A stretch of 64,000 bases of DNA from positions 1,736,001 through 1,800,000 of the forward strand of contig NZ_RKHO01000001.1 of NCBI RefSeq assembly GCF_003752505.1. Direction: 5' to 3'. A model generated the notes under the pieces. It had not been told where the DNA came from and made no database searches. It worked only from the letters and a program-made list of their open reading frames with translations. Positions within the stretch are counted from its first letter, which is position 1. Each line of letters starts with the position of its first letter. This DNA comes from Nocardioides aurantiacus. Lineage in GTDB: Bacteria; Actinomycetota; Actinomycetes; Propionibacteriales; Nocardioidaceae. Positions 4,701-10,008 of this stretch are shown in pieces. The translations under genes and the position numbers were made by a program.

Positions 4701-6560
4701 TCAGCCGGCCAGCACCTCGAGCAGGGCGTCGCCCCACTTCTCCAGCTTGCCGGCGCCGATGCCGGAGATGCCGCCCAGCGCCGCCTTGTCGGCGGGCACC
4801 TCCGCGGCGACCTGGCGCAGCGTGGCGTCGTGGAAGACGACGTACGCCGGGAGCCCGGCCTCCTTGGCCGTGACCGCCCGCCAGCCGCGCAGCCGCTCGA
4901 AGCGGGCCTCGCCCGCGGCGTCGAGCGGGGTGGCGTCAGCCGCCGCGCGACTGCCGCCACCGGAGCGTCGGCGGGTCGCCCGGGGCGCCTCGGTGCGCAG
5001 CGGCACCTGCCGGCCGGCGCGGAGCACCTCGTCGGAGCCCGGCGTCAGCTCCAGCGTGCCGTAGCCGTCGGCGGAGACGGCCAGCAACCGCCGGGCGAGC
5101 AGCTGTCGCACCACGCCCCGCCAGCCGGCGGCGTCGAGCTCGGTGCCGATGCCGAAGACGGTGAGGTCGGTGTGGCCGAGCTGGGTCACGCGCGGCGTGG
5201 CGTTGCCCAGCAGGATGTCGACGACGTGGCCCGCGCCGTAGCGCTGGCCGCGCTGGTGCAGCCGCACCACGGCCGAGAGCACCTTCTGCGCGGCGACCGT
5301 GCCGTCCCAGGTCTGCGGCGGGGTGGTGCAGGTGTCGCAGTTGCCGCACGGGCCCGACTCCTGCCCGAAGTAGGCCAGCAGCTGGACGCGGCGGCACTCC
5401 ACGGTCTCGCACAGCGCGAGCATCGCGTCGAGGTTCTGGCCCAGGCGCCGGCGGTGGGCGGCGTCGCCCTCGGAGGTGTCGATCATGCGCCGCTGCTGGA
5501 CGACGTCGGCCAGCCCGTAGGCCAGCCACGCGGTGGCCGAAGCGCCGTCGCGGCCCGCCCGGCCGGTCTCCTGGTAGTAGCCCTCGACGGACTTGGGCAG
5601 GTCGAGGTGGGCCACGAACCGCACGTCGGGCTTGTCGATGCCCATGCCGAACGCGATGGTCGCGGTCATCACGAGGCCGGGCTCGCGCAGGAAGCGCGCC
5701 TGGTGCTCGGCGCGGACCGAGGCGTCGAGCCCCGCGTGGTAGGGCAGCGCGGTGATGCCGTTCTTGACCAGGAAGGCGGCAGTCTCCTCCACCGACCTGC
5801 GCGAGAGGCAGTAGACGATGCCGGCGTCGCCCGCGTGCTCGGTGCGCAGCAGCTCGAGCAGCTGGGCGCGCGGGTTGTCCTTGGGCACGATGCGGTACTC
5901 GATGTTGGGGCGGTCGAAGCCGGCCACGAAGGTCCGCGCCGCGCCCAGGTGCAGCCGCTCGACGATGTCGGCGGCCGTCGCCTGCGTCGCCGTCGCGGTC
6001 AGCGCGATCCGCGGGACGCCGGGCCACCGGTCGCCGAGCACGGCGAGCTGGAGGTAGTCGGGCCGGAAGTCGTGGCCCCACGAGGAGACGCAGTGCGCCT
6101 CGTCGATGGCGAAGAGCGCGATCTCGCCGCGGTCGAGCAGCTGGAGCGTCGAGGGCACCGAGAGCCGCTCGGGGGCGAGGTAGAGCAGGTCGAGCTCGCC
6201 GCCGACGTAGGCCGCCTCGACCCGGCGCCGCTCCTCGAGGTCCTGCGTGGAGTTGAGGTAGGCCGCCCGGACGCCGAGCGCGGCGAGGGCGTCGACCTGG
6301 TCCTGCATCAGCGCGATCAGCGGCGAGACCACCACGCCGGTGCCGGGACGGACCAGCGCCGGCACCTGGTAGCACAGCGACTTGCCGCCGCCGGTCGGCA
6401 TCAGCACCAGGGCGTCTCCCCCGGCCACCACGGTGTCGATGACGGCCGCCTGCTCCCCGCGGAACTCGGGGTAGCCGAAGACGGTGCGCAGCGTCTCCAG
6501 CGGGCTGGTCGGGGCCGCAGCCGTCACGTCGCGCACGGGAGCCATCCTGCCCGACGCCAC
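4701..6560 (-). CDS. recQ: ATP-dependent DNA helicase RecQ
   Basis: This is a 3'-5' DNA helicase acting in recombinational repair, 619 aa and close to the usual bacterial length. Walker A is [12 protein letters not shown] with the Lys at residue 60, and the DEAH box [16 protein letters not shown] covers residues 153-156. Motif VI is [11 protein letters not shown]. The zinc-binding module is visible as [13 protein letters not shown] followed by CGNCDTC. A winged-helix region and a C-terminal HRDC domain follow (roughly residues 540-619, containing [20 protein letters not shown]). A second in-frame ATG at 6545 is an equally good start. The gene is divergent from the photolyase-like gene, so two putative DNA-repair genes share a short promoter region. 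Confidence 0.95.
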
Positions 6561-6598: not shown

Positions 6599-7822
6599 GT
6601 GCCCTCCCTGCCCCCGCTGCCGGACGTCGACGACACCGGGGCGGTGGTGGCCTGGGTCTCCGAGCACCTCGGCGACCTGGCCCTGGAGGGACCCGACGGG
6701 ATCCGTCCCGGCGGCCACCGGGGTGGCCAGGCCGCGGCCGACCTCGCGCTCGCGACCCTCGACGTGGCCGGCTACGCCCGGTCGCGGTCCACGGTGCTGC
6801 CCGAGTCGCGCCGCGGGGCGACCCGGCTCTCGCCGTACGTCCGGCACGGGCTGCTGAGCCTGCCCGAGGTCTGGGGCGCCGTGGGCGACGCCCCGTCCTC
6901 GGACCGTCGCCGCTACCGCGACGAGCTGATGTGGCAGGAGTTCGCGCGCCACCTCTACGCCGGCACCGGCGCGGCGCTGGCCGAGCCGCTGCGCTACCAC
7001 CCGCCCCACCCGGCGAGCCCGCCCGCGTGGGAGGAGCAGATGGCCTGCACGTCGTGGCTGCGCGAGGAGCTCGAGGGCCAGGGCTGGCTGGTCAACCAGA
7101 CCCGGATGTGGTGGGCCTCCCACTGGACCGTCCGGCACGGTCGCGACTGGCGCGAGGGCGAGGACGACTTCTTCCGCCACCTGCTCGACGGGTCGCGCGC
7201 CGCCAACCGGCTCGGCTGGCAGTGGACCGTCGGCTCCGGCACCGGCAAGCCCTACGGCTTCAGCCGGTGGCAGGTGGAGAAGCGCGCGCCGCAGCTGTGC
7301 CGCTCCTGCCCGCTGCGCGACGCCTGCCCGGTCCAGGGCTGGCCCGACGCCGAGCGCGGGCCGCGCGTCGAGGGCGCAGCGGCAGGCACCGCCGAGGGCC
7401 CCGGGGCCGGCCCCGACGCACCGTCCCGCTCCGGCGACCCGGCGGCGGTCTGGCTCACCGCGGAGTCGCTGGGCGACGCAGATCCGGCGCTGGCCGCGCA
7501 CCCCGACCTCCCCGTCGTCTTCGTGTACGACGAGCCGCTGCTGCGCTCGCTGCGCCTGTCCGGCAAGCGCCTGGTGTTCCTGGCCGAGTGCCTCGCCGAC
7601 CTGGCCGAGCGCCGCGAGGTCGACGTGCGCCGGGGGCGGGTGGGCGAGGAGCTGGCCGGCACCGCCGTCGCCGCGACCTTCGCCCCGGTGCCGGGCTTCA
7701 CCCGTCGCTCGGCCGCGGTCGAGGTCGCCGACCTCCACCCGTGGCCGTGGCTGGTCCGTCCGGCCGGGCAGCGGCTCACCTCCTACAGCGCCTGGCGCAA
7801 GGGCGTGTCCCTCCGGGCGTGA
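6599..7822 (+). CDS. Photolyase/cryptochrome-family protein with permuted domain order
   Basis: This 407-aa protein (GTG start) carries the FAD-binding helical domain of photolyases at its N-terminus: [48 protein letters not shown] and [20 protein letters not shown] then [12 protein letters not shown]. The usual N-terminal antenna domain is absent. Instead residues about 283-407 look like that domain moved to the C-terminus: [17 protein letters not shown] parallels the VWFRRDLRLxDNPALAA opening, [13 protein letters not shown] the next strand, [11 protein letters not shown] the following helix, and [11 protein letters not shown] the domain end. Between the two sits a three-cysteine cluster [10 protein letters not shown] (residues 234-243) in place of the usual RIFNP tail, which might bind metal. 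Light-driven repair or photoreception is inferred from family only. Confidence 0.8.
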
Positions 7823-7846: not shown

Positions 7847-9409
7847 TCAGGGCACCATCACACCCGGGTTGAGGACGCCGGTGGGGTCGAGGGCCGCCTT
7901 GACCGCGCGCAGCACCGTCACGCCGACCGGGCCGACCTCGCGGGCCAGCCAGGGGCGGTGGTCGGTGCCCACGGCGTGGTGGTGGGTGATGGTGCCGCCC
8001 GCGGCGAGGACGGCGTCGCTGGCCGCAGCCTTGGCGGCGAGCCACCGACCCAGCGGGTCCTCGCCCTGCCGCGCCGCGACGGTGAAGTAGAGCGAGCACC
8101 CGGTCTCGTAGACGTGGGAGACGTGGCACAGCACGAGCGTCCCCTCACCCAGGCCGTCCTGGAGCGCCTCGGTCACCGCGTCGCGGAGCCGGTCGACCCC
8201 GCTCCAGAACGTCGCCGTCTCGAGGGTCTCGACCAGGACGCCGGCATCGAGCATCGAGTCCCGGAGGTAGGGCGCCGCGAAGCGCCCCTCGCGCCAGTGC
8301 CGGCCGCGCTTCTCGCCCAGCGGCGACCCACCCGCCGCGGCCAGCGCCTCGGCGACCTCGGCCCGCCGTCGCTCCACCGCGTCGCCCTCGTGGCCGACCA
8401 CCATCAGGCACCCCGACACCCCCTCGCCGCCCACGTCGGACTGGCTGGCGAGGTTGAGCGCGGTCTCGGTCTCGTCGGAGAGCCGGACGATCGTCGGCAG
8501 CAGCTGGTGCTGCGCCAGGTGCCGCACCGCCTCCCGGCCGGCGGCGAAGGACTCGAACCGCCAGGCCTCGTGGACCTGCTCGGCCGGACGCGCACGGACC
8601 CGGACCGTGACCTCGGTGATCACGCCGAACGCCCCCTCCGAGCCCAGCAGCAGCTGCCGCAGGTCGGGGCCGGCCGCGCTGGCGGGGGCGGCCCCCGCGA
8701 CGATCTCCCCGACCGGTGTGGCGGCCCGCAGACCCACCACCATCTGGTCGAAGCGTCCGAAGCCCGCGCTGTTCTGGCCGCTGCTGCGCGTCGCGGCGAA
8801 GCCACCGATGCTCGCGTGCTCGAAGGACTGCGGGAAGTGGCCGAGGGTGAGGCCGTGCTCGGCCAGCGCCGCCTCGGCCTCGGGGCCGCGCATCCCCGGC
8901 TGCAGGGTGGCGGTCATCGAGACCGGGTCGACCGCGAGCAGGCCGTCCAGCCGCGCGAGGTCGAGGCTGACCACGCCGGCGTACCCCTCACGGGTGGCGA
9001 CGAGACCGCCGGTGACGGACGTGCCGCCACCGAACGGGACCACCGCGACGTGGTGCTCGCGCGCCCAGGCGAGCACCGCGACGACCTCGTCGTGGGACCC
9101 GGGGCGCACCACGGCGTCGGGGGCGTCGGACAGGTCGCCGGCGCGGGCGCGCAGCAGGTCGGGCGTCGACTTCCCCCGGGTCCGCGACCGGCGGGTGCCC
9201 TCGTCGGTGTGCACGTGGGCGGTCCCGACGGCTCCGGCCAGGGACGCCAGCAGCTCCTCCGCCAGGCCCGGCCCGGGCAGCACCACCCGGTCGACGGCCG
9301 GGGTCGGCACGGCCCCGAAGGCGGCGTCGACCAGGGCCTGGGTGGCCTCGGACAGGGGGCCGGCGAGGCGGGGGTCGCCCCAGCGCTGCGGGTGCATCTC
9401 TCGGGTCAT
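7847..9409 (-). CDS. FAD-binding oxidase, alkyl-dihydroxyacetonephosphate-synthase-like
   Basis: This is a 520-aa flavoprotein of the PCMH/vanillyl-alcohol-oxidase superfamily. The FAD-binding part includes VRPGSHDEVVAVLAWARE and VVPFGGGTSVTGG. The C-terminal half has LCHVSHVYETGCSLYFTVAA and a His triplet THHHAVGTDHRPWL (His 476-478), hallmarks of alkyl-DHAP synthase relatives, which exchange or oxidise groups on a glycerol-phosphate-like substrate. It is divergent from a TetR gene with only 17 bp between the start codons, and glpD lies beyond. The same trio occurs in Mycobacterium tuberculosis (Rv2249c-Rv2251), which supports a shared role in ether-lipid or glycerol-phosphate metabolism. 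The true substrate is not established. Confidence 0.88.
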   Translation of the reverse strand: MTREMHPQRWGDPRLAGPLSEATQALVDAAFGAVPTPAVDRVVLPGPGLAEELLASLAGAVGTAHVHTDEGTRRSRTRGKSTPDLLRARAGDLSDAPDAVVRPGSHDEVVAVLAWAREHHVAVVPFGGGTSVTGGLVATREGYAGVVSLDLARLDGLLAVDPVSMTATLQPGMRGPEAEAALAEHGLTLGHFPQSFEHASIGGFAATRSSGQNSAGFGRFDQMVVGLRAATPVGEIVAGAAPASAAGPDLRQLLLGSEGAFGVITEVTVRVRARPAEQVHEAWRFESFAAGREAVRHLAQHQLLPTIVRLSDETETALNLASQSDVGGEGVSGCLMVVGHEGDAVERRRAEVAEALAAAGGSPLGEKRGRHWREGRFAAPYLRDSMLDAGVLVETLETATFWSGVDRLRDAVTEALQDGLGEGTLVLCHVSHVYETGCSLYFTVAARQGEDPLGRWLAAKAAASDAVLAAGGTITHHHAVGTDHRPWLAREVGPVGVTVLRAVKAALDPTGVLNPGVMVP

Positions 9410-9411
9410 GC

Positions 9412-9444
9412 GTTACATTGTGACACATGTCGTCTGTCAGTAAC
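9412..9444. promoter_or_regulatory. Candidate TetR operator overlapping both divergent start codons
   Basis: Only 17 bp separate the two ATGs. Inverted arms GTTAC...GTAAC (9412-9416 and 9440-9444) enclose TGACA...TGTCA (9421-9425 and 9435-9439). This could be the autoregulatory site of the TetR protein. Confidence 0.35.
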
Positions 9445-10008
9445 ATCGACCGCGTGCTCGACGCCGCCCGCGAGGTCATCCTGACCGTCGGTCTGCGCCG
9501 CGCCACCCTGACCGACGTCGCCCGCCGGGCCGGGGTCTCGCGGATGACGGTCTACCGCGCCTTCCCCGACATGCAGGCGATCCTCGCCGAGCTGATGACC
9601 CGCGAGTGGGTCGCCGAGATCGACCCGGCGTCCGACGCCGTCGAGGCCGGCGGCGAGGGACCCGCGGACGTGCTCGCCCGCCGCTTCGCCGCCGCCGTCC
9701 GGGCGCTGCGCGAGAACCCGCTGTTCCGCCGCATCGTCGACGTCGACCCCGACCAGCTGCTCCCCTACCTGGTCGACCGTCGCGGCCGCTCCCAGGACCT
9801 GGTGCTCGACCTGGTGGCCGCGCGCATCTCCTCGGCCCAGGCCACCGGTGAGGTCCGGGACGGCGACCCGACGCTGCTGGCCCGGTCCCTGGTGCTCGCC
9901 GCGCACGGCTTCGCACTGTCGGCGCGCACCATGACCACCGACGGCGTGGCCGCGGCCGACCTCGACGCCGAGCTGGTGCAGCTCGTGCGTCGCTACCTCG
10001 CACCGTGA
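9427..10008 (+). CDS. TetR-family transcriptional regulator
   Basis: This is a 193-aa one-component repressor. The N-terminal helix-turn-helix is clear: RVLDAAREVILTVGLRRATL, then DVARRAGVSRMTVYRAFPDM. The C-terminal ligand-binding domain is the usual Ala/Leu-rich helical bundle with no recognisable signature. It is divergent from the alkyl-DHAP-synthase-like gene and overlaps glpD by 4 bp (GTGA), so it should be translated with glpD and control both transcripts. The first codon follows the neighbour's start by 17 bp, leaving almost no leader. The ligand is unknown; an acyl or glycerol-lipid metabolite would fit the context. Confidence 0.9.
   Translation: MSSVSNIDRVLDAAREVILTVGLRRATLTDVARRAGVSRMTVYRAFPDMQAILAELMTREWVAEIDPASDAVEAGGEGPADVLARRFAAAVRALRENPLFRRIVDVDPDQLLPYLVDRRGRSQDLVLDLVAARISSAQATGEVRDGDPTLLARSLVLAAHGFALSARTMTTDGVAAADLDAELVQLVRRYLAP

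Follow-up and report, generated by a model that had tools for sequence, protein, structure and literature searches.

A photolyase homologue of Nocardioides aurantiacus with its FAD and antenna domains in reversed order, and its two-gene relatives

The window analysed here is a stretch of 64,000 nucleotides from Nocardioides aurantiacus (contig NZ_RKHO01000001.1, positions 1,736,001 to 1,800,000 of the forward strand), and the gene in question encodes a photolyase-like protein with a flavin adenine dinucleotide (FAD)-binding domain in its N-terminal half and an antenna domain in its C-terminal half (Table 1). Photolyases usually have the antenna domain first and the FAD domain second. An earlier note on this DNA had proposed that the two domains are swapped, and sequence comparison of both halves confirmed the reversed order. 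The gene is taken to be real because full-length orthologues exist in four further genomes, two of them congeneric (87 and 85% identity) and two not so described (65 and 64%). The same homologue search gave some match in 39 of 58 genomes and a full-length protein in five; beyond those five, matches were to the FAD part only (30–46% identity), apart from one weak match to residues 8–58, and 20 of 25 FAD-part-only loci inspected were antenna-first photolyases by motif. A search of the window genome itself by FAD-part profile (E<=1) brought up two genes, the present one and an ordinary class I photolyase with its antenna domain first. Relatives were collected as a list of at least 80 loci ranked by similarity, which is not a census; Nocardioides potassii was the nearest relative among the matches listed. 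Alignment A2 holds 55 of 80 loci, with split, most cut-off and odd loci omitted and the start-clipped L077 retained; the FAD motif was not found in the sequence of L088. Two of the loci, L061 and L077, are titled Bifidobacterium breve, and mislabelled bins are suspected, since the gene occurs among other environmental actinobacterial bins.

The N-terminal half, which no antenna domain precedes, was identified as a FAD domain by a Pfam PF03441 match at residues 156–217 (E 1.5e-9) and by phmmer, with which residues 70–216 matched 1tez and 1owl (E about 2.5e-13). An AlphaFold2 model of the whole protein had a mean predicted local distance difference test score (pLDDT) of 93.8 and a predicted template modelling score of 0.93, and its C-terminal domain was alpha/beta with five strands. 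The solved fold nearest to the FAD half of the model was that of the FeS-BCP or prokaryotic (6-4) photolyases (PhrB); such structural matches span model residues 1–259, with one row to 349, and bear on the FAD half, not on the C-terminal domain. The longest row, 7pub_Ff, is a Trypanosoma mitoribosome assembly chain of photolyase fold, which may carry a domain after its FAD domain.

Searches with the C-terminal part as a single sequence returned nothing significant. PF00875 was matched at E 0.12 and 12.8 bits, under the cut-off of 26.6, a 128-residue C-terminal piece had no match at E<=0.1, and NCBIfam gave only a chance-level match to another family (E 0.032). Profiles, in contrast, matched the antenna domains of photolyases and cryptochromes. 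A profile of 30 C-terminal parts, run with hmmsearch against PDB sequences, gave 28 matches at E<=0.1 (best E 1.9e-7), every one of them a photolyase or cryptochrome (one as a fusion protein) and every one in the N-terminal antenna domain. In hhalign, 76 C-terminal parts matched 20 antenna-first photolyases with 96.8% probability and a score of 74.2 over template columns 4–110; the highest score among 100 column-shuffled decoys was 23.1, and the reversed alignment scored 13.8. The class I photolyase of the window genome aligned with the C-terminal part through residue 151. The domain closes with a motif around an invariant tryptophan, presumably akin to the one closing class I antenna domains; the earlier note had rightly placed such a motif here, and its counterpart in relatives reads FSRYWR. 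By these profile comparisons residues from about 282 to 407 are confirmed as a shortened photolyase antenna domain.

Four cysteines (C150, C234, C237 and C243) are kept in all 56 aligned fused homologues and in 28/28 sequences of a set that includes split forms, and they align with the four cysteines of three FeS-BCP proteins, whose identity rests on PF04244 matches in all three and, for L127, on a match to PhrB (4dja) at 1.7e-125. The earlier note had seen the last three as a Cys-x2-Cys-x5-Cys cluster replacing the end of the FAD domain; the motif is real, but as judged by alignment it is an FeS-BCP-type site and no oddity of this protein, and it comes with a fourth invariant cysteine, C150, that the note did not name. 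The iron-sulfur (Fe-S) site that the note thought possible is now probable, and the four residues would bind a [4Fe-4S] cluster. In the presumed lesion pocket, N166 and M170 are invariant in the same two sets (56/56 and 28/28); the corresponding residues are Asn and Met in 7/7 class I photolyases aligned and His and Leu in 3/3 FeS-BCPs, and we take these positions to distinguish cyclobutane pyrimidine dimer (CPD) enzymes from (6-4) enzymes. N203 is present in 56/56 fused homologues, and N166, M170, N203 and W209 together make up the CPD-type residues of the window protein. W184 and W207, which we take to be two of the three electron-transfer tryptophans, are invariant (28/28), and E109 is presumably a catalytic-site residue of CPD photolyases.

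Table 1. Features of the reversed-order photolyase gene and of its neighbours (window positions)
Feature	Position	Strand	Basis or remark
Reversed-order photolyase gene	6599..7822	+	407 aa, GTG start, stop included; homologues support the start
FAD-binding catalytic domain (predicted), residues about 1-251	6599..7351	+	
C150, first putative Fe-S ligand	7046..7048	+	56/56; aligned with upstream Cys of three FeS-BCPs
N166 to M170, CPD-type lesion-pocket motif	7094..7108	+	N and M in 56/56
C234-x2-C237-x5-C243, other three putative Fe-S ligands	7298..7327	+	56/56, 28/28; aligned with FeS-BCP CxxC...CP
Linker, residues 252-281, lowest model confidence	7352..7441	+	pLDDT blocks 85 and 62; gappy in alignment A1
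Antenna-like alpha/beta domain, residues 282-407	7442..7819	+	profile matches, hhalign, predicted secondary structure
Closing motif around W399, counterpart of relatives' FSRYWR	7775..7804	+	W399 in 56/56; A3 alignment
recQ, divergent neighbour, outside the system	4701..6560	-	TIGR01389, E 1.3e-221
FAD-linked oxidase, convergent with the photolyase gene	7847-9409	-	PF02913, PF01565
TetR-type regulator, beyond the FAD-linked oxidase	9427-10008	+	

The earlier note had left open whether this architecture was described before. It is already known from marine cyanobacteria, the window protein being a fused representative from the Actinobacteria. For Synechococcus and Cyanobium, PMC9426592 describes two adjacent genes, Phr4 for the FAD part and Phr5 for the antenna, and a version that merges them, Phr6, "in the reverse domain order"; its authors raise a heterodimer or a programmed frameshift for Phr4/Phr5, and a heterodimer in Synechococcus had been suggested in 2012 (PMC3441193). 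Like the window protein, Phr4/Phr5/Phr6 have the FAD domain first and the antenna second, fused or as two genes, and the mark of the group, one upstream Cys followed about 85 residues on by CxxCx5C, is present in the window protein with a spacing equal within one residue to that of the Phr4 cysteines given there (C169, C254, C257 and C263). Among the FAD contacts that this source lists for the Synechococcus enzyme are N349 and N386. The window protein differs in its actinobacterial host, its shorter C-terminal domain and its Q167/S199 in place of His/Asp, and its identity to the two Cyanobium sequences in A2 is 32–33%. In the open-access literature, a search on circular permutation and photolyase gave no title on this architecture, and unlinked FAD/antenna gene pairs were not found in print.

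Among relatives of the window protein the two halves also occur as separate genes, in Cyanobacteria, Chloroflexota, Acidobacteriota and on one Deinococcus plasmid. On that plasmid (L032, 2812-4103) the pair consists of two overlapping genes, the second annotated only as a hypothetical protein, and on L031 and L033, also Deinococcus plasmids, the two halves are fused. To follow the two halves over a wider sample, 862 genomes of four phyla were searched with a FAD-part profile (A4) and an antenna-part profile (A3). A strong FAD-half match was defined as E<=1e-80, a cut set after the score gap between 5e-66 and 5e-85 had been seen, and in many genomes only part of the first-pass candidates were scored, which makes absences soft. 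The antenna half was present in all 51 genomes with a strong FAD-half match, four of which (G000, G058, G060 and G063) were search centres that had supplied profile rows. Twenty-five of 146 Cyanobacteria had a strong FAD match (at least 320 bits), and the same 25 had a strong antenna match (E<=7.4e-47); identical sets would arise by chance at 1e-28 if genomes were independent, a figure that serves as a guide only, since the genomes are related. The cyanobacterial antenna matches lie in separate open reading frames (ORFs) of 138 to 177 residues from stop to stop. By match positions, 14/25 pairs lie within 250 bases and 3/25 at 0.9–1.9 kb on one strand, while the halves are not neighbours in the other 8/25, four being more than 400 kb apart on one contig and four on different contigs, whose lengths place them at least tens of kilobases apart. 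Strong matches to both halves were found in one and the same set of 20/296 Actinobacteria, and these 20 pairs are read as one ORF each because they lie on the same strand and in frame with 88 to 109 bases between the matches. Four of 121 Chloroflexota had a strong FAD match and the antenna half, a fifth (G327) with the antenna half and a partial FAD match (E 5e-55) being counted apart, and both halves were present in 2/299 Pseudomonadota. The divergence of the two halves is correlated (Mantel r 0.76, reached in 0/2000 permutations), although shared descent alone would give the same. The survey suggests that the reversed order is one manifestation of a broader enzyme, which in many cases consists of two separate proteins. 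Near the FAD/antenna pair of two Chloroflexota there is also an FeS-BCP-type gene, about 1.3 kb upstream with one ORF between in L127 (1270-5462) and about 0.15 kb away in L138 (1-3000), a possible photorepair cluster.

The earlier note had explained the swapped order by circular permutation, in which case one antenna-first photolyase gene was permuted and the two-gene forms are later splits. The C-terminal domain does closely resemble the antenna domains of class I enzymes (94.0, 88.8 and 96.8% against three single sequences), as expected of a permuted class I gene. The split forms of the bacterial groups named above and the non-neighbouring halves of eight cyanobacteria speak against such an origin, and so does the FAD-domain tree, where parsimony requires four switches between fused and split; with split scored against every other row, well-supported branches force three or more. 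In this tree the fused forms of Cyanobium and the split ones of Synechococcus are sisters, and all reversed forms stand apart from class I (100/100); long branches meet in it, those of the FeS-BCP rows being very long, and it does not fix the root. Because split relatives occur in several phyla and the label changes four times, fusion of neighbouring genes is the simpler origin and looks likelier, its direction being unproven, and we consider permutation unlikely. Adjacent gene pairs with the FAD gene first, 5/17 of which overlap by four bases, are a natural source of a FAD-first fusion.

Taken together, the window protein is most likely a light-dependent DNA-repair flavoprotein, specifically a CPD photolyase of the short photolyase-like protein (SPL) or Phr4–Phr6 kind, to which we assign a probability of roughly 0.78. 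Its N-terminal domain would bind the catalytic FAD and, through the four cysteines, a [4Fe-4S] cluster, and the shortened antenna domain would dock on it, where it may hold a cofactor that collects light or act as no more than a structural lid. The homology of both parts, their order, the conservation of the cysteines and pocket residues and the joint occurrence of the two halves are established here; FAD and Fe-S binding, CPD specificity, antenna function and physical association are inferred. The gene would be the fused form of an enzyme made of two proteins in other phyla, with the domain order set by the gene order, FAD gene first and antenna gene second. In Synechococcus RS9916 a phr4 mutant is reported to survive UV-C 20 to 30 times less well, and phr4/phr5 to protect phr-deficient E. 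coli after UV-C (PMC9426592).

Several observations weigh against this interpretation. The same paper (mBio 2022) reports that loss of phr4 had no measurable effect after UV-B, and its authors predict (6-4) activity; in the open-access literature no experiment was found on the window protein or any actinobacterial member. E109 is replaced by Ala in L101 and by Gln in L032, and the five actinobacterial rows of the alignment with FeS-BCPs have Gln167/Ser199 where the other family rows have His/Asp. A first, narrower and mostly actinobacterial set of C-terminal parts gave only 68.6% in the profile comparison, and the FAD-domain tree does not cleanly separate the family from NewPHL-like and FeS-BCP rows. 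Three of 20 non-fused loci examined (L105, L110 and L114) have no second ORF, and in L108 the second ORF breaks off in similarity. One Chloroflexota genome (G279) has the antenna half and no FAD-half match at the cut used. Conversely, 13 weaker FAD matches (E 1e-40 to 5e-66) come without a strong antenna-half match; two of them (G090 and G171) have no Fe-S cysteines, one (G357) is a class I photolyase, and the remaining ten come from Pseudomonadota, where nine of the ten could be read as FAD-first proteins that lack CxxC. The antenna profile did not match the C-terminal parts of those nine taken together (13.5%), and by these marks the nine were read as NewPHL-like.

The (6-4) activity predicted in PMC9426592 for Phr4/5/6 from their Fe-S cysteines appears improbable for the window protein. 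The CPD reading is preferred over it because N166, M170 and N203 are kept and because SPLs are described as CPD enzymes (PMC9649867). The pocket has Asn and Met throughout both homologue sets where the FeS-BCPs have His and Leu, and N203 would, on our own reading of the alignment, be the counterpart of an Asn whose place is described as taken by water in the (6-4) photolyases of prokaryotes (PMC12083526). Less probable still is a protein with no repair activity that acts as a cryptochrome-like photoreceptor or as a redox sensor; a flavin together with an Fe-S cluster would suit redox signalling, but the lesion-pocket residues are invariant in the fused homologues and Phr4/5 is reported to give UV protection (PMC9426592). 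A truncated FAD domain with an unrelated tail, the case named in the earlier note as its refutation, which the empty single-sequence Pfam scan of the tail would have fitted, is refuted at profile level by the PDB hmmsearch (28/28) and hhalign (96.8%) and receives next to no credence.

Against this background the protein can be set beside the other photolyase groups. FeS-BCPs share the aligned cysteines but are antenna-first with a His/Leu pocket, and PF04244, matched by the FeS-BCP rows, was not found in the window protein by Pfam scan. Class I CPD photolyases share the pocket residues and have the nearest antenna domain among those compared; they are antenna-first, and the seven aligned have no Fe-S cysteines. 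NewPHL is described, like the window protein, with an N-terminal FAD domain, inverted topology and an HNxxRMW-type pocket (PMC13274461, PMC9426592). The proteins that we label NewPHL-like (L034, L132 and L133) lack the Fe-S cysteines that the window protein has, and the antenna profile finds no match in the C-terminal parts of NewPHL-like proteins, L132 being the exception (86.4%). This cyanobacterial FAD-first protein may connect the NewPHL-like proteins with the reversed-order Fe-S group.

As for the neighbourhood, the earlier note had remarked that the gene is divergent from recQ. The divergent gene is indeed recQ, on the opposite strand, but it adjoins the photolyase gene in only 1/55 loci searched (L002; flanks of at most 3 kb), by which a functional link was rejected, and the arrangement looks incidental. 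Neither the FAD-linked oxidase nor the TetR-type regulator was found in the 55 relatives' loci, within the same short flanks. A relative on viral contigs was also sought; of 42 pattern matches, 0 were confirmed.

The two-gene forms bear on the SPLs, which the literature presents as Fe-S-containing CPD photolyases that lack an N-terminal antenna domain (PMC9649867, citing Xu 2021) and which, according to the same source, may root the photolyase/cryptochrome family, antenna-less ancestors having been proposed. The window protein shares with SPLs the FAD domain with Fe-S site, the CPD-type residues and the missing N-terminal antenna, but it has a C-terminal one, which in the sampled cyanobacteria is a separate ORF. 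S. elongatus is reported to have one SPL (SePhrC) in addition to an FeS-BCP and a class I photolyase (PMC9178010). Genome G100 is probably a near relative of S. elongatus, since its class I photolyase matches 1owl (Anacystis nidulans) over all 484 residues (1049 bits); unlike published S. elongatus PCC 7942, it gave no FeS-BCP at E<=1. Besides the class I gene and a chance-level match of 12.5 bits, one photolyase-like gene was found in G100, a FAD gene of 305 residues with the four cysteines, and an antenna gene of 144 residues starts three bases past its stop. The 144-residue protein scores 22.6 bits with PF00875, again under the cut-off, and has no NCBIfam match; a small antenna protein below that cut-off would explain why SPLs look antenna-less, and the SPL antenna may reside on another polypeptide.

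We therefore put forward, tentatively and as somewhat less than an even bet, that SPLs are one half of a two-subunit photolyase whose antenna subunit is encoded by a separate, sometimes distant gene and may fall short of the Pfam cut-off, and that fusion in reversed order gives the same enzyme as a single chain; the ancestor of photolyases may then have consisted of two proteins with an Fe-S cluster, from which the antenna-first and FAD-first orders arose as separate fusions. The survey yields three testable statements, namely that an orphan protein of about 140 residues would be a photolyase subunit even far from its partner gene, that an Fe-S cluster alone would not mark a (6-4) enzyme and that SPLs may have an antenna after all. 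If true, the last of these would bear on the debated root of the photolyase/cryptochrome family.
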